DNA from: Comamonas sp. GB3 AK4-5
Lineage (GTDB): Bacteria > Pseudomonadota > Gammaproteobacteria > Burkholderiales > Burkholderiaceae_C
Direction: 5' to 3'
NCBI RefSeq assembly: GCF_041320665.1
Contig: NZ_CP166730.1
Coordinates: 2,728,001 to 2,792,000 of the forward strand
Length of the DNA stretch: 64,000 bases
Below are positions 16,311 to 35,624 of this stretch, in pieces. The notes below the pieces were generated by a model. The model was not told the DNA's origin and did not search any database. It worked only from the letters and a program-made list of their open reading frames with translations. How positions within the stretch are numbered: position 1 is the stretch's first letter; each line of letters starts with the position of its first letter. The translations under genes and the position numbers were made by a program.

Positions 16311-16320
16311 TCCGCTGACC

Positions 16321-16352
16321 TGGACCTGGACCTGGACCTGGACCTGGACCTG
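16321..16352. repeat. Hexanucleotide tandem repeat (TGGACC)5
   Basis: Five perfect copies of TGGACC plus two further bases, preceded by one degenerate copy. It lies in the intergenic stretch between the diguanylate cyclase and alaS. The rest of 16212-16543 holds the palindromic repeat at its left end and the alaS terminator at its right; no gene is seen. Confidence 0.9.
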
Positions 16353-16543: not shown

Positions 16544-19168
<2,625 letters not shown>

Positions 19169-19260
19169 GGATATATGGTTTCGGTGTGCGCCAAGCACAA
19201 GATGCTGCCGGAGCACGAAAGCGGGTAGAGAACGCTCCTTGCAGAGCCGTCTCACCGAAG

Positions 19261-19620: not shown

Positions 19621-20994
19621 ATGTCCATCGACACCACCCGTCTGTTAGCTGACGAAGCCAAGTACTGCTCTTTCGGGGACACCGTCCACTACGTCAATCC
19701 CCCGAAGATCTTCTCGGGCTGCGAAGGCAGCTATATGTACGACGATGCAGGCACGGCCTACCTTGATCTGCAGATGTGGTATTCGGCCGTGAACTTCGGC
19801 TACAAGAACAAGCGCCTTGAGGCCAAGATGATCGAGCAGCTGCAGACGCTGCCCCAGGTCGCCAGCCAGTACCTGCATCCCACCAAGATCGAGCTGGCCA
19901 AGTTCATCGCTGAAGATGCCAAGCAAAAATGGGGCAATGACGGCCGCGTGCACTTCAACGTGGGCGGCGCCCAGGCCATCGAGGATTCGCTCAAGGTCGT
20001 GCGCAATGCCACCGGTGGCAAAAGCCTGATGTTTGCCTTTGAAGGTGGCTACCACGGCCGCACACTGGGCGCCTCCAGCATCACCTCCAGCTACCGCTAT
20101 CGCCGCCGCTACGGCCACTTTGGCGACCGCGCACAGTTCATCCCCTTCCCCTACCCCTTCCGCCGCCCCAAGGGCATGACCTCGGAAGAGTATGCGGACT
20201 CCATCGTGCGCGAATTTGCACGCAAGTTCGAAAACGAATACCACGCGGTCTGGGACCCCAAGACCAACCAGTGCGAGTACGCGGCCTTCTACATCGAGCC
20301 CATCCAGGGCACGGGTGGCTACGTTGTACCGCCTCCCAATTTCTTCAAGGGCCTGAAGAAGGTGCTGGACGACCACGGCGTGCTGCTGGTGGTCGACGAA
20401 ATCCAGATGGGCTTCTGGCGCACGGGCACGCTGTGGTCGGTGGAGAACTTCGGCATCAAGCCTGACGTGCTGGTGTTTGCCAAGGCGCTGACCAATGGCC
20501 TCAACGCCCTGTCCGGCCTGTGGGCACGTGAAGAGCTGATCAACCCCACGGTGTTCCCGCCCGGCTCGACCCACTCCACTTTCGCCTCCAACCCCCTGGG
20601 TACGGCCCTGGGCCTGGAAGTCATGAAGATGACCCACGAAATGGACTTCGGCCGCCAGGTGCGCGAATCCGGTGCCTACTTCCTCGAAGGCCTCAAGGAG
20701 CTGCAAAAGCGCCACAAGGAAATCGGCGATGTCGATGGCCTGGGTCTGGCCCTGCGCGCCGAAATCTGCACCGAAGACGGCTTCACACCCAACAAGGCCC
20801 TGCTGGACAAGATGGTGGACATCGGTCTGGAAGGCGGCCTCGAGTACCAAGGCCAAAAGCGCGGCCTGGTGCTGGACGTGGGCGGCTACTACAAGAACGT
20901 GATCACCTTCGCGCCCTCGCTGATGATCACCCGCCCCGAGATCGACGAAGCCATGGTGCTGCTGGATCAACTGCTCACCAAAGCGAAAAAGTAA
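19621..20994 (+). CDS. Class III PLP-dependent aminotransferase
   Basis: The protein has 457 residues. Fold-type I class III features: GGAQAIEDSLKVVRNATG, FEGGYHGRTLGASS (residues 140-152), IEPIQGTGGYVVPP, Asp259 in VVDEIQMGFWRTG, and the Schiff-base Lys288 in VFAKALTNGLN. The family includes ornithine, GABA and diaminobutyrate aminotransferases, which transfer terminal amino groups. YRYRRRYGHFG is not a stretch I can assign to a known substrate class. It heads a plus-strand trio with an acyltransferase-like gene and an arginase-fold gene, which suggests polyamine or basic amino acid chemistry. The start is the ATG after GGAGAGCCGCATCC. Confidence 0.85.
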   Translation: MSIDTTRLLADEAKYCSFGDTVHYVNPPKIFSGCEGSYMYDDAGTAYLDLQMWYSAVNFGYKNKRLEAKMIEQLQTLPQVASQYLHPTKIELAKFIAEDAKQKWGNDGRVHFNVGGAQAIEDSLKVVRNATGGKSLMFAFEGGYHGRTLGASSITSSYRYRRRYGHFGDRAQFIPFPYPFRRPKGMTSEEYADSIVREFARKFENEYHAVWDPKTNQCEYAAFYIEPIQGTGGYVVPPPNFFKGLKKVLDDHGVLLVVDEIQMGFWRTGTLWSVENFGIKPDVLVFAKALTNGLNALSGLWAREELINPTVFPPGSTHSTFASNPLGTALGLEVMKMTHEMDFGRQVRESGAYFLEGLKELQKRHKEIGDVDGLGLALRAEICTEDGFTPNKALLDKMVDIGLEGGLEYQGQKRGLVLDVGGYYKNVITFAPSLMITRPEIDEAMVLLDQLLTKAKK

Positions 20995-20997
20995 GCT

Positions 20998-21095
20998 CCC
21001 CTGAGGCGCTGCGCGCCTTCCCCCTCTCTCGCTACGCGGGAGGGGGACGACGCCCTCACTGCGGGGCGGCCCTTGCTAGGCGTCCCTGGCTTGCA
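20998..21095 (+). repeat. CCCCTGAG-type palindromic repeat, copy 4
   Basis: A full-length copy two to three bases after the aminotransferase stop: CCCCTGAGGCGCTGCGCGCC, then the hairpin CCCCCTCTCTCGC/GCGGGAGGGGG, GACGACG, and CTGCGGGGCGGCCCTTGC. Confidence 0.85.
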
Positions 21096-21161
21096 CCGTG
21101 CCGGTTTCGAGTGCGACAGGCCATGCAGGCACATGGAAAACCGAATACAAAGAAAAGCGAG

Positions 21162-22241
21162 ATGGAGCAGCAAAGCTTTCGCAACCAGCTCGAACCCTCT
21201 GGCCTGCTGCAGCAGTTCATGGCGCATCCTCCCCAAGGATTTGCCTTGCTGCCACACTGGCCGGCACCGGCTTTTACGGCCCCGTTCGATCTATTGACTA
21301 CCGCAGACGACGCGCTCAAGGCGCGTCTTTTGTCTTTTCCGGGCGGGCCCTGGCTCAGCCGCCGCCTGCGCCTGACCACCGACTTTGTCGGCACCACGGT
21401 CAGCGAATACGCCGTACTTCCGCAAGGGGCAGACGCCAAGGCCCAAGCCGCAGCGCTGCGCCAATGCGCGGGCCGCACTCTGCTCACCATCGTCAAGGAC
21501 CTGCCCCAGGATTCGCCCCTGCTCAGCGATGCGGACAACGCCCATGCGCGCGCGCTGGCCCAGGCGCTGGAGCAAAACGGCTTTCTCCTGCTCGAAGGCC
21601 AGGCTCTGGCCTATGTGCGCATGGATTTCTCCAACCTGGACGAATACCTGGGTCGCCTCTCCAAAAGCCGGCGCAGCAATCTGCGACGCAAGCTCAAGAG
21701 CCGCGCCCAGCTGCACATAGAGCGGGTGCCCACGGGGCCGGCCTTTGCCGATGATGCCCGCATCGATGCCTATTACGCCTTGTTCGAAGCCGTGTACGCG
21801 CAGAGCGACATCCATTTCGACAAGCTCACGCGCGCGTTTTTTGCGGATCTCTTGCGCGATGCCGACAACGCCGGCCTGGTCTTTGAATACCGCGCGCTGG
21901 ATGCAGCGGGCCAGCCCGGCGCCCTGCTGGGCTGGAATCTGTGCTTTGAGCATGGCGGCAAGCTGATCGACAAATACATAGGCCTGTCCTACCCGGCCGC
22001 ACGCGAGGCCAATCTTTACTTCGTCAGCTGGATGGTGAACCTGGAGTACGCCCTGGAGCGAGGCCTGAGCCACTATGTCGCGGGCTGGACCGATCCCGAG
22101 GTCAAGGCCCAGCTCGGTGCGTGCTTTACGCCGACCCGCCACGCCGTTTACGTGCGCAACGCTTTGCTGCGCGCCCTCGCGCGGCGGCTCTCCGCTCATT
22201 TTGAAATGGACAAGCAATGGCTGCAGGAAACCAGCACATGA
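21162..22241 (+). CDS. GNAT/FemAB-like N-acyltransferase
   Basis: The protein has 359 residues. The central part (DFSNLDEYLGRLSKSRRSNLRRKLK at about 165-190) and the later GWNLCFEHGGKLIDKYIGLSYPAAREANLYFVSWM resemble the Acetyltransf_6/FemAB branch of the GNAT fold. These enzymes transfer an acyl or aminoacyl group to an amine; the acceptor here is unknown. The gene starts 67 bp after the repeat that follows the class III aminotransferase. Its TGA overlaps the ATG of the arginase-like gene (ATGA), so the two are coupled. Confidence 0.7.
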   Translation: MEQQSFRNQLEPSGLLQQFMAHPPQGFALLPHWPAPAFTAPFDLLTTADDALKARLLSFPGGPWLSRRLRLTTDFVGTTVSEYAVLPQGADAKAQAAALRQCAGRTLLTIVKDLPQDSPLLSDADNAHARALAQALEQNGFLLLEGQALAYVRMDFSNLDEYLGRLSKSRRSNLRRKLKSRAQLHIERVPTGPAFADDARIDAYYALFEAVYAQSDIHFDKLTRAFFADLLRDADNAGLVFEYRALDAAGQPGALLGWNLCFEHGGKLIDKYIGLSYPAAREANLYFVSWMVNLEYALERGLSHYVAGWTDPEVKAQLGACFTPTRHAVYVRNALLRALARRLSAHFEMDKQWLQETST

Positions 22242-23125
22242 CACCACCGCCTCTGGTGCTCGATACCGACGCCTCGGTGGGCCCGCTGCCGGGCGAGATC
22301 CGCATCCCCCTGAGCGATGACTGGCGTGAAGCCGTGCGCTTTGGCTGCAGCCAAAGCACGCTGCAAGCGCGCATGGACGGGCTGGAGCCCCTGATGCCGA
22401 GCTTTTCCGGCCATGGCACGGTCTTCATGGGCAGCGGCGACTTCCATCACCTGAGCTTGCCGCTGATCCTCCGTTGCCTGCACACCCAGCGCCAGCCGGT
22501 GGAAATCGTGGTGCTGGACAACCACCCGGACAATATGCGCTTCCCCTGGGGCGTGCACTGCGGCTCCTGGGTGCGCCATGTGGCCTTGCTGCCCGAGGTG
22601 GCGCATATGCATGTCATAGGCATCACCTCCAACGACCTGAGCCTGGGCCATGCCTGGGAACACCAGCTGGCCGCACTGCGCGCCGGCAAGCTCACCTACT
22701 GGAGCTGCGGCGTAAACACCCGCTGGGCCCGGTATCTGGGCCTGGGTGAACGGTTCCGCTCCTTCTCGCACACCGACGCCTTGATCACGGCCGCAGCAGG
22801 CCAGCTGGCACAGTCGTGCCATCCGGTCTACCTGAGCATAGACAAGGATGTCTTCGCGCCCGATGTGGTGCGCACCAACTGGGACCAGGGCCAGATGCGC
22901 GAGGCCCATCTGGAACAGCTGCTGCCCGCATTGCGCGGCCGGCTGGTGGGCAGCGATGTCACCGGCGATGTCTCCACCTGGCAATACCGCAGTGCCTGGA
23001 AGCGCTGGCTGAGCGCGGCCGATGGCCAGAAAACCGAGCGCGAAGAAGCCGAGCTGCCCCGCTGGCAAGCGCGCCAGCACGCCTTCAATCTGCAATTGCT
23101 GGATTGGCTGGCGGCGCTACGCTGA
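22238..23125 (+). CDS. Arginase/deacetylase-fold protein
   Basis: The protein has 295 residues. It shows the spaced metal-ligand motifs of the arginase (ureohydrolase) fold: SGDFHH at 66-71, LDNHPDN at 93-99 and SIDKDVF at 200-206. Arginases and agmatinases have GGDHS, DAHxD and SxDxD at these places, so metal binding is likely, but the variant motifs leave the substrate open. Its start overlaps the stop of the acyltransferase gene by four bases. It ends a plus-strand trio and faces the sensor kinase gene head-on. Confidence 0.75.
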   Translation: MTPPPLVLDTDASVGPLPGEIRIPLSDDWREAVRFGCSQSTLQARMDGLEPLMPSFSGHGTVFMGSGDFHHLSLPLILRCLHTQRQPVEIVVLDNHPDNMRFPWGVHCGSWVRHVALLPEVAHMHVIGITSNDLSLGHAWEHQLAALRAGKLTYWSCGVNTRWARYLGLGERFRSFSHTDALITAAAGQLAQSCHPVYLSIDKDVFAPDVVRTNWDQGQMREAHLEQLLPALRGRLVGSDVTGDVSTWQYRSAWKRWLSAADGQKTEREEAELPRWQARQHAFNLQLLDWLAALR

Positions 23126-23256
23126 AAGCCAAAGCCCCCCTACTTAGCAGCCCTCCTGCGCTTGGGCCCGCGTTCCACTCGGCTCAAGCAGCGCCTGACA
23201 CCCTCGGCAGCAGGGAGGTCAGGCAGGAAGTGGCCAGAACAGCGCGCACGCTGTGG

Positions 23257-24423
23257 CTATGCGACATCGGCGCCTTCTGCGACAAGGGCAAAGTGAATCC
23301 GTATGCAGGCGCCTCCACGCGCCGAGGTTCCCACCTCAACGCGGCCGCCCTGCAGCTCCACCAGGGATTGCACAATGGACAGCCCCAGGCCAGAGCCGTT
23401 GTGCCGCCCACCAGGCTGATTCGGAAAACGCTGAAAAGGCCGCTCACGCATGGTGTCCGGCAAGCCCGGCCCCGCGTCGCTGAACTCCAGCGTGACCTGC
23501 CCATCGCGGGTGGTCAGCACCACACCGATCCAGCGGCCACTGACGGCATAGCGCAGGCAGTTCTCCAGCAAATTGCCAACGATCTGGCGCATGCGATTCA
23601 GATCGGCCCGCACCGGCACTGCATCTGCAGGCAGTTGAATGTCGACCTCGAAGCCTTTCTCCTGCAAGCGCGTGTCAAAGCGCGCCAGCTCTTCCTGCAC
23701 AAGGTTGGCGAGATCCAGCCGCTCGCTGTGCAGCGACAGCCGGCCTGCGGAAACCAGTGAGATCGTGTGCAGGTCCGTGACCAGCCGCCCCAGGTGCAGC
23801 GACTGCTGCAGCAGCCCCTTCATTTCCTCGTCGCTGCCCGGAATCACGCCATCGACAATGGCATGCAAGCGGGCGCTCAACACGGCCAGCGGCGTACGCA
23901 GCTCATGCGACAGCGAGGCCACCGTCATGCGCCGCTCGCGGTCCAGCGCCTCGAGCGAATCGATCATGTGGTTGAAGTCCCGCACCATCTCGGCCATCTC
24001 ACCGCGCGCGTGCCCGCCTTCCGCTCGCACGGCAAAGTCGCCCACTGCCACCCGGGTGGCAGCCTCCGCCATGGAGGCCAGCGGCTGCGTCACCAGCCGA
24101 GACACCCAAAACCCGGTCGCCAGGCCGAAAGGCAAGCCCAGCATCAGTGCAAACAACAGGGCAAAGCGCTCGCTGCCCCAGGGGTCGCCGCGCCAGTACT
24201 CACCATAGATCTGCATGGCCCGCGGTCCTTCATCCAGGCCTTGCGCCACCAGTTGGTCGTACTCCACGCGCACCTCCGCAGGCAGCGTGCGATAAAAGCG
24301 GGCCTCTTCCAGCTTCCAGAACAACAGCAAGCTGGTCGTCAGCACGGCCAGCGTGACGGCGATTGCCACCGCGACCGCCAGCCCGAAACGCACCCAGATG
24401 CGGTCCAGCAACCGCACCATCAT
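23257..24423 (-). CDS. Sensor histidine kinase, BaeS-like
   Basis: The protein has 388 residues. Membrane segments lie at about 12-35 and 88-108 around a short periplasmic loop of some 50 residues. A HAMP domain follows (VTQPLASMAEAATRVAVGDF), then the phospho-acceptor His173 in SLSHELRTPLAVL, the N box LLENCLRYA, and the G boxes DAGPGLP and GSGLGL. The start is the ATG with GAGGAG six bases upstream. It lies 256 bp beyond the DegT-like gene on the same strand. The only response regulator in the window without a kinase beside it is at 33196, so those two probably pair. Confidence 0.88.
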   Translation of the reverse strand: MMVRLLDRIWVRFGLAVAVAIAVTLAVLTTSLLLFWKLEEARFYRTLPAEVRVEYDQLVAQGLDEGPRAMQIYGEYWRGDPWGSERFALLFALMLGLPFGLATGFWVSRLVTQPLASMAEAATRVAVGDFAVRAEGGHARGEMAEMVRDFNHMIDSLEALDRERRMTVASLSHELRTPLAVLSARLHAIVDGVIPGSDEEMKGLLQQSLHLGRLVTDLHTISLVSAGRLSLHSERLDLANLVQEELARFDTRLQEKGFEVDIQLPADAVPVRADLNRMRQIVGNLLENCLRYAVSGRWIGVVLTTRDGQVTLEFSDAGPGLPDTMRERPFQRFPNQPGGRHNGSGLGLSIVQSLVELQGGRVEVGTSARGGACIRIHFALVAEGADVA

Positions 24424-24679
24424 CGACACTCCTCGACGCAAACAGCTTTCACCATATGGTTGACCTCCACTCCCTGCAGCTTACGCCAGCGCTTGAAAGC
24501 GCGAATCCCTCACCAGCCCCTGCAGGCCCAGCGCCATCAAAAAGCCTCGCCAGGCACACCCGCAGGCCCAAGAGAATGGGTCTTAATCTTGCCAATGGCA
24601 ACGCCATCCCCCTCGGGCTATTTGCCCGCCGCAAACCTTGAGAGGACGGCGGACTGGCTTTCGCAGAATGCAAAAGGCG

Positions 24680-25975
24680 TCATTCCTTCAAGCTTTGCGC
24701 CATCTCGCATGTATGGGCTTGCCCCGCCGCCCTGGCGATCTGGGCCAGCAGCCGCTCAAAGCGCGCACCGTCCAACCAGGGGCTGTTGCTGACGGCCACC
24801 AGGCGTGAAGCCCAGTCACGCGCACAGTCCACCTTGTCGTTGCGGGTCGCGGCGAGCACATGGTCGTAGCGGCCGTAGTCGGGTAGCACATGCACAAAAG
24901 GCAGGGACAGCCCGCTGCCATCCCCCCAGTGCTGGGCCATGAGTGCATCGCGCGCAGCGGCGGTTGGCAGGCGCAGCAAAATGACCGGCCAGGTTCCATG
25001 CGCCTTGTTCGCGCCCTCGCCACCCACCTCTGTCACGACTTCAACGCCAGACAGGGCTGCCAGGCGTGCACAGCGGCAGGCAGCCTGTTGTGCCGTCTGC
25101 TGCAAAAAAGCCAGTAAGCGCTGCAAGGCCCTGGCACCCACACGCTGGCGCCAGCGACCCAGAGGGTGCTGGGGAATGAGGTCGTCAAAATCGTCACCCG
25201 CGGCCTCCACCCAGTCACCACGCGACAGGGATTTTTTCAGCGGTGCGCCGTAAGCCAATGCCAGGCCGCGTGGGCGGTACAGCGCCGCATAGGCGATCAG
25301 CTCCACGCTGCGGCGCAGCTCCCAGAACAGGCTGGGCCTGACCTGCTCGCCAGCCCGCGCCAAGGCCTGGCGCAAACGCTCATCACGGGCCAGCAGCACA
25401 CCACCTTCAAAGGTGGTCAGGCCCTTGCCCACGGCCAGGCTGTAAAAACCGATATCGCCCTGCCAGCCTACGGGCTCACCCAGCGGGCTGCCGCCCTGCA
25501 ATGTGCCCAGGCGCGCACCCAGTGCCTGGGCCGCATCTTCGATCACATAGGCGCCCACCGCATGTGCGCAAGCCAGGGCCTGGGCCACATCGGCCACACG
25601 CCCGCACAAATGCGTGGGCATGACGGCCAGGGTCTGCGGGCTGCAGAGGCTGCGCAAGACATTGCCATCCATGTCCAGCGCATCGGCACGCAAATCACAC
25701 AGGCGCAGCTTGAGCCCGCACTGGGCCACGGCCAAGGCCACCAGGGGGCAGGTATAGGCAGGAGCAATGACCTCATCGCGCTGCGGCGCGATGGCGCGCA
25801 GCGCACGCAGTGCCACCATGAGGGCCGAAGTGCCCGAGCATTCAAGCTGCACGGCAGGCACGCCCAGCCATTGCGCCAATGCCGACGCCAGGTCGTCAGC
25901 ACCACCGCCCCAGGGCAACAGGTCGGCCAGGCCCAGCGGCAATCCCGCCGTGGGCGGAACCACGGGCTCAGCCAT
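24680..25975 (-). CDS. DegT/DnrJ/EryC1-type PLP aminotransferase
   Basis: The protein has 431 residues. It has the DegT fold: CSGTSALMVALRAL (residues 47-60), PAYTCPLVALAVAQCG, VIEDAAQALGA with Asp147 as PLP ligand, and the catalytic Lys184 in FYSLAVGKGLTTFEGG. These enzymes usually aminate nucleotide-linked keto-sugars, but members of this branch without a sugar operon act on other carbonyls. No nucleotide-sugar enzyme is present here, so the substrate is open. The ATG overlaps the stop of the upstream EamA gene (ATGGCTGA). It is the last gene of the efflux/modification run before the kinase. Confidence 0.82.
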   Translation of the reverse strand: MAEPVVPPTAGLPLGLADLLPWGGGADDLASALAQWLGVPAVQLECSGTSALMVALRALRAIAPQRDEVIAPAYTCPLVALAVAQCGLKLRLCDLRADALDMDGNVLRSLCSPQTLAVMPTHLCGRVADVAQALACAHAVGAYVIEDAAQALGARLGTLQGGSPLGEPVGWQGDIGFYSLAVGKGLTTFEGGVLLARDERLRQALARAGEQVRPSLFWELRRSVELIAYAALYRPRGLALAYGAPLKKSLSRGDWVEAAGDDFDDLIPQHPLGRWRQRVGARALQRLLAFLQQTAQQAACRCARLAALSGVEVVTEVGGEGANKAHGTWPVILLRLPTAAARDALMAQHWGDGSGLSLPFVHVLPDYGRYDHVLAATRNDKVDCARDWASRLVAVSNSPWLDGARFERLLAQIARAAGQAHTCEMAQSLKE

Positions 25976-26441
25976 GGCGGTCAGGCTCGGCAAGATGGGC
26001 TACCCCAGCGCTGGTCGAACCCGCGCCCGGATTACCCCCCGCGTGGCCTGCCGTGTCCTCATGGCCCTCGGCCTCCGACGTTTCGCTCATGGCAAGGCAG
26101 GCGATGCCGGCCACGATGAAGCCGCAACCTATGATTTGCGACCAGCCGATCTGCTCGTTGAACAGCCAATAGGAAAAGGCCAGCACCGACAGAATTTCCA
26201 GGTGCGAGGCGGCAAACGCCGGCCCTATGGGCGCGCGCTGCAGCAAGGTCATCCACGAAAAAAACGCGCCGATGTAGCCGACGAAGGCACCGTAAATCCA
26301 GGGCTGGCTGAACACGCGCAGCAGCCATTCAGATGAAAACTCCAGTGGCAGCGCCGCATTGCCGGCCTGCTTGAAACTCAGCTGGGCCAGGGTGTCAAAC
26401 GCCATGAGCACCAAAAAGCCAATGATGTAGAAGCGTTTCAT
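25968..26441 (-). CDS. Small EamA/SMR-type membrane protein A
   Basis: The protein has 157 residues with four membrane helices (IIGFLVLMAFDTLAQLSFKQAG, IYGAFVGYIGAFFSWM, an SHLEILSVLAFSYWLF segment, IIGCGFIVAGIACLAM). A hydrophilic Gly/His/Glu-rich tail of about 35 residues follows. The four-helix size and the LAQLSFKQAG phrase match the SMR/ArnE-ArnF type within the drug/metabolite transporter superfamily. It is two bases from a second such gene, so the two are probably halves of one heterodimeric flippase or exporter. Confidence 0.8.
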   Translation of the reverse strand: MKRFYIIGFLVLMAFDTLAQLSFKQAGNAALPLEFSSEWLLRVFSQPWIYGAFVGYIGAFFSWMTLLQRAPIGPAFAASHLEILSVLAFSYWLFNEQIGWSQIIGCGFIVAGIACLAMSETSEAEGHEDTAGHAGGNPGAGSTSAGVAHLAEPDRHG

Positions 26442-26443
26442 GC

Positions 26444-26800
26444 CTAGCCCAGCCCCACAATCCCTACACCGACAGACACCAGCACAATGCCTGCCACCCG
26501 CATGGGCGCGAGCTTTTCCTTGAACAGCACACGCCCCAGCACCATGATGGCCACGATGTTGATCGAGCCCAGCAGCACGCCGTCAGACAGCGGCACCAGG
26601 GACAAAAAGGCCAGCCACAGCACAAACTCGGCCACATAACAGCCCACGCCCACCCACAGCCAGGGACGGGCTGCCATGAAGCGCCAGCGCTGCGTGCCGG
26701 CCAGCTCGCCAGGCTCGCTGGCCGCGGCCTTGAAGGCCAGCTGACCACCGCTGTCCACCAACACGTTCAAAACCCAGAGCGTGATGACCAGGGGCGACAT
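26444..26800 (-). CDS. Small EamA/SMR-type membrane protein B
   Basis: The protein has 118 residues and four predicted helices. LVDSGGQLAFKAAASEPG in helix 1 mirrors the LAQLSFKQAG of its neighbour. SDGVLLGSINIVAIMVLG and the C-terminal IVLVSVGVGIVGLG are typical of DMT-superfamily repeats. The start at 26800 follows the hydrolase stop by one base; an ATG at 26812 is also in frame. With protein A it likely forms a heterodimer, as ArnE and ArnF do when flipping aminoarabinose-lipid. Confidence 0.78.
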   Translation of the reverse strand: MSPLVITLWVLNVLVDSGGQLAFKAAASEPGELAGTQRWRFMAARPWLWVGVGCYVAEFVLWLAFLSLVPLSDGVLLGSINIVAIMVLGRVLFKEKLAPMRVAGIVLVSVGVGIVGLG

Positions 26801-26801
26801 A

Positions 26802-27761
26802 TCACTGCCCATGCACACCACCCGCCACTGCCGGCGCCTGAACGCCAGCGGTGTTCACAGGTTCTGCCACAGCCCCGACCGCAGGCACGGACATGTTGGC
26901 AATCCGGGCCACGAACTCGTTCACCTTGGCAATCACCGTGCGCCGCTCGCGGTCTATGGTGATCATGTGATAGCTGTTGTCCAGCAGCACCAGCTCCACA
27001 TGGGCATGGCTTGCACGGCGCACGATGTCATGGGCGTTGCCTACGGCCGAGATGTCGTCTTCCTTGGCATGGATCACCAGACAGGGCGAGCGCAGCCTGT
27101 CCAGCCTTGCCAGCACATGGGCCGACAGCCTGCGCAGCTCCACCACCGACCACCAGGGGTTGCCCGGCAGGCCTGCGGCCGCGCTGTCGCCGCCCAGCAT
27201 CTGCTCGACAACACGCGCACGCAGCGCCTCGTCCTTGATTCCGTAGGGTGGCTGTTCCATGAAGACGCTGTTTCGGCCAATGCCCAGCGCGCGAAACAGA
27301 GGCAGCAAAAAAGACAGTTTGGTGTAGATGGGCATGCTCCAGCCGTCATAGCGGAACGTGGTGGACAGAGCGCAGACCCCGGCCACCTTGTCCGCATGTT
27401 TTTCAGCCACGGCCAGGGACAGCAAAGCCCCCATGGACAGGCCGCCCACCACCACCTGGTCCACCTGCCCGGCCAGGCGCAGCAAGCCCTGCTCCACACT
27501 GGCCAGCCAGTCACTCCAACGCGTGTGCAGCAAATCCTCCATGCTGCCGCAATGGCCTGCGAGCTGCACCGCATACACGCTGAAGCCTTGCTTGTTCAAG
27601 CCCTTGGCCAGCACCCGCATCTCGGCCGGCGTGCCGGTCAGGCCATGTACCAGCAGCACGCCCGTGCGCGCGGCCCGGCCATGGCCTGGCATGGCGAACT
27701 CATGCTCGGTCACGCAGATCTGCGCCAGCGGCGCGGCCGCCAGCTCCGGTCTTGCATTCAT
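26802..27761 (-). CDS. Alpha/beta hydrolase, carboxylesterase/lipase-like
   Basis: The protein has 319 residues. The oxyanion phrase is LLVHGLTGTPAEM (residues 37-49), the nucleophile Ser109 lies in GGLSMGALLSL, an acid residue is likely in HAKEDDISAVGNA, and the catalytic His is in DNSYHMITIDRERR. The pattern is that of EstA/monoacylglycerol-lipase-type enzymes. No signal peptide is seen, so it should act in the cytoplasm on an ester, thioester or lipid. The start overlaps the HAD phosphatase stop (ATGA). The C-terminal 25 residues are low-complexity Ala/Val/Gly. Confidence 0.82.
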   Translation of the reverse strand: MNARPELAAAPLAQICVTEHEFAMPGHGRAARTGVLLVHGLTGTPAEMRVLAKGLNKQGFSVYAVQLAGHCGSMEDLLHTRWSDWLASVEQGLLRLAGQVDQVVVGGLSMGALLSLAVAEKHADKVAGVCALSTTFRYDGWSMPIYTKLSFLLPLFRALGIGRNSVFMEQPPYGIKDEALRARVVEQMLGGDSAAAGLPGNPWWSVVELRRLSAHVLARLDRLRSPCLVIHAKEDDISAVGNAHDIVRRASHAHVELVLLDNSYHMITIDRERRTVIAKVNEFVARIANMSVPAVGAVAEPVNTAGVQAPAVAGGVHGQ

Positions 27762-28591
27762 GCCATGGCCTCCTGGCCCAGCACCACCTTGGCCAGCAAT
27801 TGCGTGGCCTCGGCGAAATCGGTGAACGGCACATGGGCGATGCCCATGCTTTCGCAGTGGGCGATGAGCTTGTACTTGGCAAGCACCAGGTCGGCCTGAC
27901 CCGAAACGCAGAAGTCCGAGGTGCTGTCGCCCACATAGAGCACGCGGCCATGCACGGCCTGCTGCTCGGCCAGGCGCTCGCATTTACAGTTGCCGCTGGC
28001 ACGCTTGCAGCGCGCGCTGGCCCAGGGCGACTCCAGGCGCCAACGGCGCTCGCCCACCTGCTCCAGCCGGTTGGCGATGACTTCGAGATGGCCCAGACCA
28101 TGGCGGCTCAGCACATGGTGTATGGCACGGTCTATGCCGTCGCTGACCACCTGCACCACCATGCCATGGGCCTGGGCTTGCGCCACAAAGCCTGCAAAGC
28201 CGGGGTCAACAGCAATCGTGTCCAGGTGGGCACGGAGCTCCGCCTCGCTCATGTCGAGCAAGGCCACCTGGCCCTTCATGCATTCACGCGAGCCTATCTT
28301 GCCGTTCTCCCAGTCTTCTTCCAGCTGCTGCCAGCCCGGCAGGCCAAAGCGGTTGAGCAGGCTGTCGGTGACATCGACCAGGCTGATGGTGCCGTCAAAA
28401 TCGCTTTGCACCATCCAGCCAGGATTGGGCTGCGCCCTCGACAAAGCATGGCCCATCAAACCGCCACGCTCGAACTCAGAGACACCGCGCAAGGGCTGTG
28501 CAAACTCAGGCAAGACAAAGCCGCAGTCCTCTTGTCTTCCTATTTCAGGGGAAGCCGCGCAGCCGCTCAGGGGGTGTGTAAGTTCATTCAT
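27758..28591 (-). CDS. HAD-IB phosphatase, MtnX/SerB-like
   Basis: The protein has 277 residues if translated from 28591. The HAD motif I is DFDGT (residues 64-68) with a second nucleophile region SLVDVTDSLL; motif II is VVSDGID and motif III/IV VLYVGDSTSDFCVSGQADLVLAK. It resembles the MtnX-like HAD-IB group that removes phosphate from small molecules. Cys-rich ARCKRASGNCKCERL could bind a metal and is unusual. The first 59 residues are encoded by a degenerate CCCCTGAG repeat; an ATG at 28414 would give the compact 218-residue domain. The 28591 start overlaps the HlyD stop, which keeps both options open. Confidence 0.8.
   Translation of the reverse strand: MNELTHPLSGCAASPEIGRQEDCGFVLPEFAQPLRGVSEFERGGLMGHALSRAQPNPGWMVQSDFDGTISLVDVTDSLLNRFGLPGWQQLEEDWENGKIGSRECMKGQVALLDMSEAELRAHLDTIAVDPGFAGFVAQAQAHGMVVQVVSDGIDRAIHHVLSRHGLGHLEVIANRLEQVGERRWRLESPWASARCKRASGNCKCERLAEQQAVHGRVLYVGDSTSDFCVSGQADLVLAKYKLIAHCESMGIAHVPFTDFAEATQLLAKVVLGQEAMA
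28455..28574 (-). repeat. CCCCTGAG-type palindromic repeat, degenerate copy 5
   Basis: On the minus strand CCCCCTGAGCGGCTGCGCGG lies nine bases after the HlyD stop. A worn-down series of blocks (GACTGCGGCT, AGCCCTTGCGCGGTGTC) follows in the same order as in full copies. It is in frame with the HAD phosphatase. Confidence 0.5.
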
Positions 28592-29657
28592 GGAATTGCA
28601 CCCTCACGTTCTGCCCCACGCGCACGCCTGCCGGGGGCTGGTCAAAACTCAGCACGCTTTCAATCACGCGCACAGGGCCGCGCTGCTGGTCTTCCTGCAA
28701 GCGGGCCAGGCCATAAACCGGGCTGATGCGCGTCACCTTGGCCTCTGGCAAGGCCGTGGCCGAGCCGGCGTCGCCGTCCAGCACCACCGTGGCCTTCATG
28801 CCCTGCTTCACGGCCGAAGCAAAGCTTTCGTTGATTTCCACACGCACCTGCAGCGGCCTTGCCGGCAGCAGAACCAGGGCGGCAAGCCCCGGCTGTGCCT
28901 GGCTGCCCACAGCCGTATTCAGGCGCGCCACAACAGCGGCCTCGGGTGCGCGCAGCTCATGGCGCTTTTGCAGGGCACGCAATTGCTCCAGCTTGCGCTG
29001 GGCAACCTTGGCCTCGGCCTGGCTCAACTCGACCTCGGCCTCGGCATCGCGCAGCGCCTGGGCCGCCTCGTCCACATTTTGGGCATCGGCTGCGGCTTCG
29101 CGTGCAGCGGCACGCCAGCGCTCCAGGCTTTGCTTGAGCTGAGGCAGGCGCGCCTGGCGCGACTTGTGACGTGCCTGTGCCAGGGCCAGCTCGGACTCTG
29201 CGACCCCTAAATCGGCCTGGGCGGCTTCATCGGCCAGACGCAGCAACAACTGGCCGCGTTCCACGCTTTGGCCTTCCTTGACCGCAATCTGCTGCACCAC
29301 GCCGGCCGTGGCCGGAGACAGCTCCAGCAAACCACCGTCCACCTCAACCTTGCCGCGCGCAACGGCCACTACCCGAGCGGGCTGTGCCCTGGCGCTCGAC
29401 GCGGCCTGGTTTGCAGGCTGCGCATCATTCGAGGGGCCGCAGCCCGCAACCAAAGCTGCCATGGACAGAGCGGCCAGCAGGCTGGCGCTACGGCTGGGGG
29501 AGGAAACCAGGCTCCACACCTTGGCGAGCAGCAGGGGCGAGGGCGTAAGGCCCAGGGCGCGGCCCCAGGCCAGGGACAGCAAGCAAGGGCCGCCCCGCAG
29601 CGAAGCTGTCGTCCCCCTCTGGGGGAAGGCGCGTACGCGACTCAGGGGGTACTTCAT
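28584..29657 (-). CDS. HlyD/DevB-type membrane fusion protein
   Basis: The protein has 357 residues from 29657. A lipoprotein signal ending in AALVAGC sits at residues 66-72. Then come a biotinyl-lipoyl-like half (LSPATAGVVQQIAVKEGQSVERGQ), a long Ala/Glu/Gln-rich coiled-coil hairpin of about 100 residues, and the returning lipoyl and beta-barrel parts (RHELRAPEAAVVARLN). It would bridge the ABC pump in the inner membrane to the TolC-like channel. The first 45 or so residues are encoded by a palindromic repeat. A GTG at 29519 would start the protein at a normal signal peptide; the ATG at 29657 overlaps the ATPase stop. Confidence 0.85.
   Translation of the reverse strand: MKYPLSRVRAFPQRGTTASLRGGPCLLSLAWGRALGLTPSPLLLAKVWSLVSSPSRSASLLAALSMAALVAGCGPSNDAQPANQAASSARAQPARVVAVARGKVEVDGGLLELSPATAGVVQQIAVKEGQSVERGQLLLRLADEAAQADLGVAESELALAQARHKSRQARLPQLKQSLERWRAAAREAAADAQNVDEAAQALRDAEAEVELSQAEAKVAQRKLEQLRALQKRHELRAPEAAVVARLNTAVGSQAQPGLAALVLLPARPLQVRVEINESFASAVKQGMKATVVLDGDAGSATALPEAKVTRISPVYGLARLQEDQQRGPVRVIESVLSFDQPPAGVRVGQNVRVQFHE
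29555..29649 (-). repeat. CCCCTGAG-type palindromic repeat, copy 6
   Basis: A near full-length copy on the minus strand starting four bases after the ABC ATPase stop: CCCCCTGAGTCGCGTACGCGCC, CCCCCAGAGGGGGACGAC, CTGCGGGGCGGCCCTTGCTTG. It is read in frame as the beginning of the HlyD-type protein. Confidence 0.8.
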
Positions 29658-30421
29658 AGATTTTCCTTGATGGCAGCAAGCTGGCGCCTGTCACTGCGTA
29701 TGGCGCCGTCTTCCATGCCGAGCACGCGGTCGGCATGGCGCACCAGACGCGGGTCATGGCTCACGCACAGCACCGTCGTGCCATGCCTGCGCGCCGCGCG
29801 GTGCAAGATATCGATGACGCGCTGGCCGCTCTCGGCGTCCAGCGCACTGGTGGGCTCGTCGGCAAACAGCAGCTCGGGCTGTTTGGCCATGGCGCGTGCA
29901 ATCGCCACGCGCTGCTTTTCACCGCCCGAGAGCTGGGCTGGCCGCATATGGCTGCGGTGGGACATGCCCACCTCTTCCAGCACCTCATGCGAGCGTTGCA
30001 AGGACTCCTTCGTGCTGAGCCCCATATAGCCCAGCGGCAGCTGGACCTGCTCCAGCGCCGTGAGCGCGGGGAAAAGATTGAAGCCCTGGAACACAAAACC
30101 CGTATGGCGCAGCCGAAATTTTTCCAGCGCACGCACACTCATGCCGCCCAGATCCTGGCCCAGGGCCATGGCCTGACCGCTGTCCGGCGACTGCAGGCCA
30201 GACATCAGCGACAGCAAGGTACTCTTGCCACAGCCCGAGGGGCCGGAGATCAGGCTGAGCTCGCCCGGGTAGAGGCTGACCGACAGGGACTGCAGCACCT
30301 GCACGCTGACCACGCCCGACAAAAAGGACTTGCTCAGGCGCACGGCTTCCAGGCTGGGCGGTGCCTTGGGGAGGTCCGGGGCGGTCTGGATGGTTTGCAT
30401 GGTAGGGGGCGACATGATCAT
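29654..30421 (-). CDS. ABC exporter ATP-binding protein, MacB/DevA type
   Basis: The protein has 255 residues. Walker A GPSGCGKST lies at residues 60-68, the Q-loop at FQGFNLFPALTALEQV, the signature LSGGE at 164-168, Walker B LLFADEP at 184-190 and the H-loop at SHD. FNLFPALTALEQVQLPL is characteristic of the LolD/MacB/DevA subfamily that works with FtsX-fold permeases to extrude lipids, peptides or drugs rather than to import. It lies three bases after the permease gene and overlaps the HlyD gene. Confidence 0.92.
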   Translation of the reverse strand: MIMSPPTMQTIQTAPDLPKAPPSLEAVRLSKSFLSGVVSVQVLQSLSVSLYPGELSLISGPSGCGKSTLLSLMSGLQSPDSGQAMALGQDLGGMSVRALEKFRLRHTGFVFQGFNLFPALTALEQVQLPLGYMGLSTKESLQRSHEVLEEVGMSHRSHMRPAQLSGGEKQRVAIARAMAKQPELLFADEPTSALDAESGQRVIDILHRAARRHGTTVLCVSHDPRLVRHADRVLGMEDGAIRSDRRQLAAIKENL

Positions 30422-30424
30422 GGC

Positions 30425-31582
30425 TTAGCGCAACAAGCTGGCCGGATCGGCGCGCAGCAGGCTGCGCATGGCGCCCAGGCCTGACAACAGGGAAAGCACG
30501 GCCACCAGCAGCGCGCACAGCAGGACGGCCATGGGCGTCAGCGCCACCGGCACGCGATAAGCCATGGCCAGAGCCAAAAGCAGGCTGCTGGCCACAGCGG
30601 CCAGCACAAAGCCCAGGGCGCCTATCCAAAACGACTGCTCAACCACGACCCGGCCCAGGGCGCCACGGCTCACACCCAGGGCGTTGAGCACCGCGTATTC
30701 ACGCGCCGAGGCCGCGACCACGGCCTTGAGCGATTGGCTGGTAACCACCGACCCCACCAGGCACACGATAAGGGCCATGAACAGCACGCCCGCACCGGCA
30801 CCCGTATCCAGCATCCAATAGCGCTGGGAGCGGCGGGCAAAATCCCTGGCCGTCCAGGCTTCATAGGGGCCAAAACTGGCTTGCGCCTGGCCGGTCTGGT
30901 TGAGCCGATCTCTCACCACCGTGGGCTTGATGCCCTGACGCAGACGGGCCACGAAATAGGTACTGCCCGGCCCATGTTCGGGCCCTGCGATCTCACGCGC
31001 CGTGGCCAGCGAAGACAGCACATTGGCGCCACCCAGGCCGCGCAATCCGCTAACAGCCGCCACCACGCGCACGCGGTGGCCGTTGATCCAGGCCACACCG
31101 CCCTCTTGCACGCCCAGCGTGCCCAGATCGGCATGGTCAACAATGACAGCGCCGGGCTCGCGCAGACGTGCACGCTGCCAGGGCCGCAGCACGCGCGCAA
31201 ACAGCATGGACTCCGCCTCGGTGGCGATGCCGGACAAATAGATGGAGACCCCGCCATGGGCCTGGGCTTCCGCCGCGTTGGCCGCACGCCAGTCGCCGTC
31301 GACCCAGACATAGGGTTCCACGGCCGTGATGTCAGGGTCCATGCGCATGCGCATCTCCACATCGCGGCCTATGTCCCGTCCGAAATTCACGCTTTGCGTG
31401 CCTGGGTAGCCCACCCAGATGTCGGCCGACGAGGCCGTCACATACAGCGCGGCCGAGCCGAAAATGCCCAGCACCAGCGCAGCCTGCATGGCCAGCAGCA
31501 CACCCGAGAAGCCCACGGCAAAAACCGAGGGTATGAAGCGCCGCCACTCATGCACCAGCGTCTTGCGCGCCAGTGCAATCAT
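30425..31582 (-). CDS. FtsX/DevC-type ABC permease
   Basis: The protein has 385 residues. A membrane segment lies at about 18-45 (FAVGFSGVLLAMQAALVLGIFG), a large periplasmic domain of about 200 residues follows (ADIWVGYPGTQSVNFGRDIG), then three C-terminal segments (FMALIVCLVGSVVTSQSLKAVV, FWIGALGFVLAAVASSLLLALAM, VLLCALLVAVLSLLSGLGAM). This is the MacB/DevC topology. Such permeases act as mechanotransmitters that drive periplasmic substrate through a TolC-type channel. The start overlaps the outer-membrane protein stop (ATGA). Confidence 0.9.
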   Translation of the reverse strand: MIALARKTLVHEWRRFIPSVFAVGFSGVLLAMQAALVLGIFGSAALYVTASSADIWVGYPGTQSVNFGRDIGRDVEMRMRMDPDITAVEPYVWVDGDWRAANAAEAQAHGGVSIYLSGIATEAESMLFARVLRPWQRARLREPGAVIVDHADLGTLGVQEGGVAWINGHRVRVVAAVSGLRGLGGANVLSSLATAREIAGPEHGPGSTYFVARLRQGIKPTVVRDRLNQTGQAQASFGPYEAWTARDFARRSQRYWMLDTGAGAGVLFMALIVCLVGSVVTSQSLKAVVAASAREYAVLNALGVSRGALGRVVVEQSFWIGALGFVLAAVASSLLLALAMAYRVPVALTPMAVLLCALLVAVLSLLSGLGAMRSLLRADPASLLR

Positions 31583-33000
31583 GATCCGGCCTCCTCGGTC
31601 TCGGCCGTCGCCGCCCCGGGCTCCTTATCCGGCAGCGGCGCTGCCCCCAAGGCCTTGTAGAGCGCCACATAGGCCAGGGCCTGGGCAGCCTGCGCCGTGG
31701 CCTGATCGCTGCGTGCAACCAGCTCGGCGCGCCGCCCGGCCAGGCCGCCAAATTCGCTGTCCAGCCCCAGCTGCTGGCGCTTTTGCTGGCGCTGGCTGCC
31801 CTGCAACAGGCTGCGCTGGGTCTGCTGCAACGCAGCCAGGCGCTGCCCCTGTGCCGTCAGGCCGGCCAGGGCGATTTCCACCTCGGCAACGGCATCCAGC
31901 ACGCATTGTCTGTAAGCCTGGCCTGCGGCCTGCAGCGCCAGCTCGCTGGCATCGGCGCGCGCGCGGCGCTGGCCCCAGTCGAACAGCGGAATATCAATTT
32001 GCGGCCCGAACGTCGGGCTGTTGTCCGAGGTGGTACGAAAGTTCTGCGTGAGGTTGTAGGAGTACAGCAGCGAACCCATCAGCACCACACGCGGATAGAG
32101 CGCGGCCTGCGCCAACCCGGCGTCGGCAGCCGCACGCTCCACCGCAGCCTGGGCCATCTGCAGATCAGGCCGCGTGCGCAGCAGATCGGCAGGCAGGGCC
32201 GTCAAGCCCAAGGCCTGTGCCGGAGGCAGGCGGGCCTGCGCGTCAGCCGCCAACCATTCGGCATGGGGCCGGGTCTGGCCCAGCAGGGCCGCGAGACCGT
32301 GGGCCGCACGCGCCTGGGCCAACTCCATGTCGGCCAGTTGCGCCGCACTCTGGCTGGCCTGGTTTTGCAACTGCAGCACGGCCTCGGTCGTCCCCAGGCG
32401 CTGCTGCTGGCGCACGCGGGCCAGGGCCAGGGCGCGCTCGTCAAGTCGGCGCTGCTCACCCAGCAGGCTGCGCTGGCGCTGGGCCAGGCGCAGGTCCAGA
32501 TAGCGATGGACCACATCGGCCACCAAGGCCACGCGTGCCGCCTGCAGGCGCGCCTTGGCGTCCAGCAATTCGGCCTTGCTCGCGCGCTGGCTGGACTCGG
32601 ATGCACCGAACAGCCCCAGATCCCAGGCCATGTCGATGCTGGCGTGGAAATAGGAGTCTATGGCCGCGATATCTTGCAGCGTGCGCGCACCGGCCGAGAA
32701 GCCAGGCCTGAAAGCTGCATCGGACACACCGGCGAGCACACGCTTTTGGCCCAACCTGAGCTCAGCCTGGGCCAGATCCTGGTTGGCAGCCAAGGCTTGC
32801 TCCACGATGGCATTGAGCTGCTCGTCCCCCCAGGCTTTCCACCAGTTGCGCAGATCGGGGCCGGGGGCGGCGAGGTCCAGGCCTTGCGTCCAGGCCGTGG
32901 GCACCGAGCGATCAAGCTGAGGCTCAGACGGCGCGGCACACCCGCCCAGCACCAGGGCAACGCCCAGGCTCAAGGCGAAAAAACGGGGCGTTGCGACCAT
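31579..33000 (-). CDS. TolC/NodT-family outer membrane efflux lipoprotein
   Basis: The protein has 473 residues. A signal peptide ends in the lipobox LVLGGC (Cys21). Two outer membrane efflux repeats follow, each with long Gln/Ala/Leu-rich coiled-coil helices, and the central NodT phrase LPADLLRTRPDLQMAQAAVERAAADAGLAQAALYPRVVLMGSLLYSY. It would form the trimeric exit duct for the ABC-HlyD pump encoded downstream. It is the first gene of the long minus-strand run and is divergent from the response regulator, so its promoter should lie in 33001-33195. The frame is open further upstream, but only the ATG at 33000 gives a signal peptide. Confidence 0.9.
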   Translation of the reverse strand: MVATPRFFALSLGVALVLGGCAAPSEPQLDRSVPTAWTQGLDLAAPGPDLRNWWKAWGDEQLNAIVEQALAANQDLAQAELRLGQKRVLAGVSDAAFRPGFSAGARTLQDIAAIDSYFHASIDMAWDLGLFGASESSQRASKAELLDAKARLQAARVALVADVVHRYLDLRLAQRQRSLLGEQRRLDERALALARVRQQQRLGTTEAVLQLQNQASQSAAQLADMELAQARAAHGLAALLGQTRPHAEWLAADAQARLPPAQALGLTALPADLLRTRPDLQMAQAAVERAAADAGLAQAALYPRVVLMGSLLYSYNLTQNFRTTSDNSPTFGPQIDIPLFDWGQRRARADASELALQAAGQAYRQCVLDAVAEVEIALAGLTAQGQRLAALQQTQRSLLQGSQRQQKRQQLGLDSEFGGLAGRRAELVARSDQATAQAAQALAYVALYKALGAAPLPDKEPGAATAETEEAGS

Positions 33001-33195
33001 AGGGAGAGAGTTGGGGGAAGACAAGGCAAGGGGATGAAAACAAGCGGGGAAACAAAACCCCGAAAGCCTATTCAAGCAAGCCAACCTTGCGCCGCATTGC
33101 AGGCTTTGTGTAGCGAATATGGAGGCACTGCAGCACCTGCCACCGCCCCCATAATGCGAGTTTGCCAACGACCAGATGTCTGTAGATTGCGCCCC

Positions 33196-33918
33196 ATGAA
33201 CGCCAGCACCTCGTCCGCCCCCATGCCTTTGGTGCTCGTCGTCGAAGATGAACCCGGTATTGCCAGCGTCCTGGCCGCTTATCTGGAGCGGGATGGACTG
33301 CGCTCCCGTCTGGCCCAGGACGGCATGGAAGCCTTGCAACTGTTTCGCCAGTTCCGGCCCGACCTGGTCTTGCTGGACATCCACCTGCCAGGCATGGATG
33401 GCATCGATGTGCTGCGCGCCATCCGCGATGAAGACCAAACACCGGTCATCATGGTCACCGCCCTGGCCGATGATGTGGACAAGCTGCTGGCTCTGCGCCT
33501 GGGCGCCGACGACTATGTGGTCAAGCCCTTCAACCCACCCGAGGTCGTGGCCCGCGTGCGCGCCGTGCTTCGACGCACGCACGCAGCGCCAAGTGCGGCT
33601 CCCGCGCCACTGCGTGTGGGGCCCATAGAGATAGACACCGAGGGGCATATCGCCACCGTCTATGGTGAGGACGGTCGTGCCGCACCCCTGTCGCTCACGC
33701 TGACCGAGTTTCGCCTGCTGGCCTGCCTGGCTGCCCAGCCCAGGCGCTGCTTTTCACGCGCCCATTTGATCGAGCATTGCCTGCCGGAAAGCGAAGCCCT
33801 GGAGCGTGTGATCGACTCCCACCTGTCCAAGCTGCGCCGCAAGCTGCAGCTTGCGGGTCAGGAGGGTCTGATCGAGACCGTGCGCGGCATAGGCTACCGC
33901 CTCTGGCCCTGGGACTGA
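33196..33918 (+). CDS. OmpR-family response regulator, BaeR-like
   Basis: The protein has 240 residues. In the receiver domain, the acidic pocket is EDEP (17-20), the phospho-acceptor Asp61 is in LLDIHLPGMDG and the conserved Lys110 is in YVVKPF. The C-terminal winged helix (about 140-238) has SLTLTEFRLLACLAAQPRRCFSRAHLIEH and the IDSHLSKLRRKL recognition region. BaeR-type regulators control efflux and envelope stress. Its gene is divergent from nodT at 195 bp and probably activates that operon. Its likely kinase is 9 kb away at the far end of the run. Confidence 0.9.
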   Translation: MNASTSSAPMPLVLVVEDEPGIASVLAAYLERDGLRSRLAQDGMEALQLFRQFRPDLVLLDIHLPGMDGIDVLRAIRDEDQTPVIMVTALADDVDKLLALRLGADDYVVKPFNPPEVVARVRAVLRRTHAAPSAAPAPLRVGPIEIDTEGHIATVYGEDGRAAPLSLTLTEFRLLACLAAQPRRCFSRAHLIEHCLPESEALERVIDSHLSKLRRKLQLAGQEGLIETVRGIGYRLWPWD

Positions 33919-35467: not shown

Positions 35468-35624
35468 ACGCGAAAACTTCCAGGAAATCGTGCGCCGCAG
35501 CCCGAAAAGCAAGCTGCAGCCCTATCAAAATTCAAAGCAGGCCCTGCCCCGCCAAACTGGTGCAGCACAGCCCAGAGACAGCGCACCAAAGCCTACGCCA
35601 GCCGCGCAAGCGGCCCAGGGCTGA

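Follow-up and report, generated by a model that had tools for sequence, protein, structure and literature searches.

A mobile gene cluster of Comamonas and other Pseudomonadota proposed to make, flip and export an amine-bearing, probably acylated molecule

Between alaS (16544-19177, minus strand) and rng (33980-35512, minus strand) of Comamonas sp. GB3 AK4-5 lie 14 genes which, in the reading that we somewhat favor, form a horizontally moved cluster whose product, a molecule that bears an amine and is probably acylated (lipid-linked), is made, flipped and exported by the encoded proteins. The window, i.e., the whole stretch of DNA analyzed, comprises 64,000 nucleotides and corresponds to bases 2,728,001 to 2,792,000 of the host genome, a single contig of 5.05 Mb. 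A plus-strand run encodes AT3, a class-III pyridoxal phosphate (PLP) enzyme that serves as the hub of the cluster, a FemAB-like transferase (FemAB) and an arginase-fold enzyme (ARG), the FemAB and ARG genes overlapping. Nine genes on the minus strand encode an outer-membrane factor, the permease and the ATPase of an ATP-binding cassette (ABC) exporter, an HlyD-type adaptor, a HAD phosphatase, an alpha/beta hydrolase (ABH), two EamA/SMR membrane proteins (SMR1 and SMR2) and a DegT-like aminotransferase (DegT), and the remaining two genes encode a histidine kinase and, placed divergently, a response regulator. Every gene named in an earlier reading made from the letters of the DNA (hereafter the sequence-only reading) was confirmed between alaS and rng by Pfam or NCBIfam profile matches, as was its claim that the minus-strand genes from nodT to DegT overlap or nearly touch: with the starts of the open reading frames (ORFs) as used, the gaps are -4, +3, -4, -8, -16, -20, +2 and -26 bp, and neighbors are thus at most 3 bp apart. 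Comparison with the C. testosteroni locus (L012) suggests that some true starts probably lie further in, perhaps by ~58 residues in HAD, ~4 in ABH and ~6 in DegT, in which case some overlaps would be smaller and HlyD and HAD might be separated by a gap of ~165 bp. The kinase gene lies 238 bp from DegT and thus outside the tight run. Scans of the sequence for promoters (0 sigma-70-like sites versus 1.9 in shuffled sequences) and terminators (15 versus 12.3 in shuffled sequences, standard deviation 3.9, i.e., chance level) were uninformative on transcription. The flanking alaS and rng were themselves considered as partners and rejected, since among eight members of the family three (G133, G171 and G204) carry the cluster on other contigs and five have no AT3 match.

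DegT as the query against named genomes yielded 15 loci, from records named Acidovorax, Comamonas, Xylophilus, or Burkholderiaceae/Proteobacteria metagenome-assembled genomes, and 11 of the 15 hold the full set including AT3 (L013 reaching the end of its contig), while two others, L007 and L009, are interrupted by contig ends. ARG and DegT are separated at the C. testosteroni locus by a cyclopropane-fatty-acid-synthase-like gene, and L005 appears, by reading, to carry a similar gene along with further insertions. At E 1e-120 or better, samples of 300 genomes from the order and 299 from the phylum contained 13 and 20 genomes with AT3, respectively, 29 genomes in total. Codon-trained gene calls were made at 27 loci, representing 24 of these 29 genomes and three DegT loci; two of the loci (L017 and L076) share 31-mers and are one genome, leaving 26 distinct. 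The AT3 genomes outside this set are the window's own (the query), G133 (covered by tblastn comparison only, at L045 and L111), G328, G440 and G444, and among 17 FemAB loci those outside it are six weak ones (L030 to L035), L041 to L044, where no AT3 cluster was seen, and L036. At the 27 loci, all of which hold AT3 by selection, ABH was present in all 27, HAD in 26 (all but a truncated duplicate), at least one SMR gene in 18, FemAB in 16, ARG in 14, DegT in 10 and the exporter permease in seven; a ketosynthase (KS) was found in 11 and an acyl carrier protein (ACP) in nine. The idea that the gene set behaves as one unit stands as regards its conservation and needs amending as regards its composition: DegT and the exporter are optional, and HAD and ABH are the most constant partners of AT3. 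Across Pseudomonadota a core of HAD, AT3, ABH, the SMR pair, FemAB and ARG recurs, with genes gained or lost. One compact version is L080, from the single-contig 1.28 Mb genome G222. In the stretch read, its core lacks FemAB and ARG, and the genes form a single packed run that also includes an ACP, a KS, a DUF2147 protein and an ABC-HlyD-OEP exporter of the MacB type. A DUF2147 gene also adjoins the cluster in L089, and MipA/OmpV-family outer-membrane proteins adjoin it in L039, L085, L099, L100, L101 and L103.

Co-occurrence of the parts was assessed in the 299-genome phylum sample, with E limits of 1e-120 for AT3, 1e-15 for the arginase-fold and exporter genes, 1e-40 for DegT and 1e-8 for FemAB. 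Inside the 20 AT3 genomes, which span nine families, fell all 11 genomes with ARG, all 10 with a permease of at least 52% identity, all seven with DegT and 17 of the 19 with FemAB. All remaining permease matches were of 31% identity or less, and the split between the two groups was chosen after the gap had been seen. The numbers expected inside the AT3 set by chance are 0.7, 0.7, 0.5 and 1.3, respectively (hypergeometric p 2e-9 or lower, values that take no account of relatedness). In the window's own family all five genes occur in four genomes of the sample (G000, G133, G171 and G204) and none occurs in four others (G093, G049, G234 and G264), of which G093 belongs to the same genus as the window. 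The distances between the proteins also correlate, with r of 0.63 to 0.97 across 21 to 35 loci and a permutation p of 0.0005 in each of the ten comparisons. Part of this correlation is due to shared host ancestry, to two deep subtypes and to one duplicate genome; FemAB and ARG gave the highest value (r 0.97), and AT3 and HAD gave r 0.84. The sequence-only reading had held that it would be undone if its parts were regularly found apart. In its strong form such separation was not found: the parts are sometimes unlinked, as in G391, G524 and G568, where a separate operon encodes the exporter, either on a different contig or a long way from AT3, yet orthologues of the exporter, ARG and DegT occurred only in AT3 genomes of the sample. 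In G524 a second FemAB gene, with ARG and two SMR genes, lies on another contig (L108).

These data bear on the alternative that the region is a chance juxtaposition of two or three operons with no relation to each other (one for a drug pump plus its regulator, one for lipids and one for amino acids). The exporter, the FemAB-arginase pair and the HAD-AT3-ABH trio are each separable, as such an arrangement would predict, but the confinement of three parts to AT3 genomes and the correlations for FemAB-ARG and AT3-HAD argue against it, and we regard this already disfavored explanation as very improbable. The claim of a synthesis-plus-export unit that travels together is, in turn, supported by linkage and co-occurrence. 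Besides the blindness of the p values to relatedness, several loci weigh against a single unit. Two FemAB genomes, G442 and G459, lie outside the AT3 set; two of the 15 DegT loci (L016 and L018) have no AT3, FemAB or ARG within ~10 kb of DegT; G302 keeps AT3, HAD, ABH, the SMR genes and the exporter, with FemAB and ARG not found; L036 holds distant homologues of FemAB, SMR and ARG and, over the 19 kb read there, no match to AT3; and in the 31 kb read from a plasmid of Bartonella sp. HY406 (L097), the only cluster genes are AT3, FemAB and ARG. This last, minimal version adjoins an MBOAT acyltransferase and an AlgX-like protein.

Plasmids more generally carry the cluster. AT3 (E 1e-100 or better) was present in 34 of 72,556 PLSDB plasmid records, and in nine of the 10 whose gene content was read, a seven-gene core (HAD, AT3, ARG, two SMR genes, ABH and FemAB) was found together. 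At three Agrobacterium plasmid loci and one from Xanthomonas, a homologous exporter (permease identity 41-65%) adjoins the core, and a desaturase or cyclopropane synthase lies at the cluster in some Rhizobium, Sinorhizobium and Phyllobacterium records. Annotated plasmid records name the parts only generically, as aminotransferase, arginase, GNAT and EamA proteins. Among the 20 loci listed, the window's AT3 is 71-77% identical to homologues from families of the gammaproteobacterial class outside its order and from the Xanthomonas plasmid, versus 57-64% for other families of its own order. HAD (42-50% outside the order versus 30-45% within) and ABH (45-54% versus 34-44%) show the same trend with some overlap, and FemAB does not show it (55% for both L082 and L038). 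Judging from this distribution and from its position, the proposal that the cluster moves horizontally appears well supported.

The most constant genes encode AT3, HAD and ABH. AT3 (19621..20994, plus strand) belongs to the aminotransferase fold family PF00202 (238.4 bits, cut-off 30.5), its catalytic lysine, K288, being present in 38 of 38 alignment rows. In a sequence alignment to PDB chain 1szk, which is presumably itself a variant at the first of the two positions, T231 and T429 of AT3 (both in 38 of 38 rows) occupy the positions of E211 and R398 of GABA aminotransferase, which we take to be, in the E. coli enzyme, the gate glutamate and the carboxylate-binding residue. AT3 therefore does not fit the definition of the 2-oxoglutarate-dependent omega-aminotransferases of GABA-aminotransferase type (E211/R398), and its substrate pair, as far as these residues can tell, probably differs from the usual 2-oxoglutarate/glutamate. 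The phosphatase (27758..28591, minus strand, with a true start possibly at ~28417) is of the HAD-IB type (TIGR01488, 66.1 bits, cut-off 45) and of the MtnX-like subfamily (TIGR01489, 92.1 bits, cut-off 81.55), and lies below the equivalog cut-off for MtnX itself (PRK09552, 87.2 versus 292 bits); its catalytic DxD is present in 35 of 36 rows, the remaining row being cut short there. A serinol route on the model of rhizobitoxine, with AT3 acting on dihydroxyacetone phosphate and HAD following, was considered and found no support. The ABH gene (26802..27761, minus strand; start inferred, with the ORF open further upstream) matches PF12146 with 88 bits, and the nearest solved relatives of its product by sequence are monoacylglycerol lipases, a likeness that we counted toward an acylated product.

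FemAB (21162..22241, plus strand; an ATG start is assumed and a GTG at 21111 is possible) is a FemAB_like/GNAT transferase that matches PF04339, as do 24 of 24 aligned members. No NCBIfam model matched it, and a sequence search against solved structures gave nothing significant (best E 0.13). Its structure model (pLDDT 91.6) has aminoacyl-tRNA-dependent transferases as its nearest PDB folds, and among its top matches, which are peptide synthases, two structures include streptothrisamine. ARG (22217..23125, plus strand; the start may be 22238) matches PF00491 weakly (26 bits, cut-off 22) and can be placed in the ureohydrolase superfamily by its fold and retained binuclear-metal ligand motifs. 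It cannot be counted among the arginases or agmatinases proper, as it matches none of the NCBIfam families at E up to 0.001, and a Rhizobium homologue scores 23.3 bits against the agmatinase model, whose cut-off is 174.3.

Two accounts of what FemAB and ARG do were weighed. Ornithine has no tRNA of its own, and FemAB could arginylate a lipid amine or alcohol from arginyl-tRNA, whereupon ARG would strip urea to leave an ornithyl lipid, which the SMR proteins would flip and the pump would export. Such a cationic membrane aminolipid, which would be of a new class and would make the system a gene-separated analogue of MprF, is in our estimate rather unlikely. Consistent with it, all 11 ARG genomes hold FemAB and eight of 19 FemAB genomes lack ARG, those eight matches being weak (28-31% identity) and possibly paralogues, and the close co-divergence of FemAB and ARG was counted in the same sense. 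FemAB differs from MprF, with ~11% identity in the fold alignment, and is a lone soluble transferase with an arginase-fold partner; we know of no such partner for MprF, an aminoacyl-phosphatidylglycerol synthase plus flippase. Ornithine-lipid synthesis by OlsB and OlsA likewise yields an amine-bearing lipid with a GNAT-fold enzyme, as this cluster would, but FemAB matches no NCBIfam model and no OlsA-type acyltransferase is named among the cluster genes.

The second account, which we consider a real if tentative possibility, is that FemAB is an N-acyltransferase dependent on acyl-ACP or acyl-CoA, like the proposed CerS of Caulobacter, with ARG acting on the small amine beforehand and an N-acylated amino lipid or N-acyl amine as the product. 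Caulobacter ceramide synthesis (Spt, AcpR, AasR, CerR and CerS) is described as using a dedicated carrier protein and an N-acyltransferase, with transport genes in the lipid cluster (PMC11324152). The likeness to the present cluster lies in carrier protein, N-acyltransferase and transport genes standing together, and the difference, as far as the passages on this system go, in the absence of counterparts of AT3, HAD and the arginase-fold gene (PMC11324152). Spt, CerR and AasR are not named in the annotated neighborhoods of our cluster, where no search was aimed at them.

SMR1 (26444..26821, minus strand; PF00892 26.2 bits, below the cut-off of 28.2), SMR2 (25968..26441, minus strand; 35 bits) and DegT (24680..25993, minus strand; PF01041) recall the ArnE/ArnF pair and the arn pathway, in that a small EamA/SMR pair stands beside a DegT/ArnB-like PLP aminotransferase and a two-component pair is part of the cluster. 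They differ in that SMR1 scores 27.6 bits against an ArnE cut-off of 92 and SMR2 23.6 against an ArnF cut-off of 99, and in that DegT is optional here (10 of 27 loci); profile searches of the window cluster named no other arn enzymes. The DegT lysine, K190, is kept in 10 of 10 rows, the window included. The DegT matches in contig C28 of G204 (55% identity) and contig C68 of G391 (52%) each contain one TGA. In L038 (12644-18927) the cluster is followed by a two-component pair and then by a run with ArnT-like, SMR and ArnB/DegT-like genes.

The exporter genes all lie on the minus strand and comprise a NodT-type outer-membrane factor (31579..32997, start uncertain; TIGR01845 198.7 bits, cut-off 210.05), a DevC-like permease (30425..31582; TIGR01185 47.8 bits, cut-off 290.35, the sole NCBIfam model matched), an ATPase (29654..30421; best NCBIfam model DevA, 226.6 bits, cut-off 295.8) and an HlyD/RND-type periplasmic adaptor (28584..29657, start uncertain; PF13437 and PF16576), a putative lipoprotein in which, by reading, a cysteine follows a hydrophobic stretch. 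DevBCA, which exports heterocyst glycolipid, forms with TolC, like MacAB, a comparable assembly of ABC ATPase, FtsX-like permease, HlyD adaptor and outer-membrane factor. The present exporter differs from these systems in its DevA and DevC scores and in being linked to a biosynthetic cluster in Pseudomonadota. The BaeS-like sensor kinase (23257..24441, minus strand; HAMP, HisKA and HATPase_c domains) scores 194.8 versus 500 for BaeS and 176 versus 500 for AdeS, and the OmpR-family response regulator (33196..33918, plus strand) has AdeR as its best NCBIfam model (246.5 versus 340) and reaches 192.4 versus 380 for BaeR, all below the equivalog cut-offs. Membership of the ArnE/ArnF, DevABC and BaeSR families, which the sequence-only reading had suggested, was therefore not borne out, every score being below the curated NCBIfam cut-off, and control by envelope stress is not supported as it was put, the presence of a two-component pair having been its sole basis.

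At the level of sequence comparison, we regard it as established that the genes belong to one functional set and that the enzymes are of the types given above. In the mechanism that we propose, AT3 and the HAD phosphatase would make a small amino compound, and acyl chains would be supplied by ordinary fatty acid synthesis in the window's host and, in other genomes, by a synthase and a carrier protein of the cluster's own. ABH would trim or release an acyl group, FemAB would add an aminoacyl or acyl unit, ARG would then hydrolyze a guanidino (or similar) group on the FemAB product, and in some lineages DegT would introduce another amine. The SMR pair would flip the product across the inner membrane and the ABC-HlyD-NodT pump would carry it out, the two-component pair controlling the whole cluster.

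That the product is an acylated or lipid-linked amine, as the sequence-only reading had tentatively put it, is probably correct and is indirectly supported by the KS, ACP, cyclopropane synthase and desaturase genes that belong to the cluster elsewhere, and export is suggested by the recurrence of the four-part pump, including the MacB-type one in the 1.28 Mb genome. Set against this, the window cluster has no KS, ACP or lipid-modifying genes of its own, and we infer the product itself from gene content and comparison. Elsewhere in the genome, far from the cluster, there are four FabF-like matches and a single homologue of cyclopropane synthase (39% identity). A soluble secreted small molecule, such as a metallophore, signal or antibiotic, for which the SMR pair and the pump would be alternative exits, would fit the patchy distribution and the 34 plasmid records, which are in keeping with specialized metabolism, and also the peptide synthases and streptothrisamine among the top matches of the FemAB model. 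The cyclopropane synthase, desaturase, KS and ACP accessory genes argue against it, as does retention in a 1.28 Mb genome, which we judge unusual for an antibiotic cluster, and we hold a soluble product to be unlikely, if still worth considering. An anti-phage defense system was also considered and rejected, none of the seven proteins compared (of the 14 in the cluster) matching PADLOC models at E up to 1e-10.

We found no description of the cluster in the open-licence literature, a search that left most subscription papers outside its coverage, so that an earlier description is possible. If the preferred reading of an exported, acylated amine is right, the cluster would represent a widespread pathway so far without an assigned function: of 8,000 candidates scored in a search with an AT3 relative (L086), 5,564 reached E 1e-150 or better (a count of proteins, not of clusters). 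Because three enzymes of unusual signature occur here alongside a flippase-like pair and an exporter, one deletion series with lipid profiling could assign function to several uncharacterized families. Outside the cluster, six perfect copies of the hexamer GACCTG lie at 16317-16352 of the window, immediately downstream of alaS.

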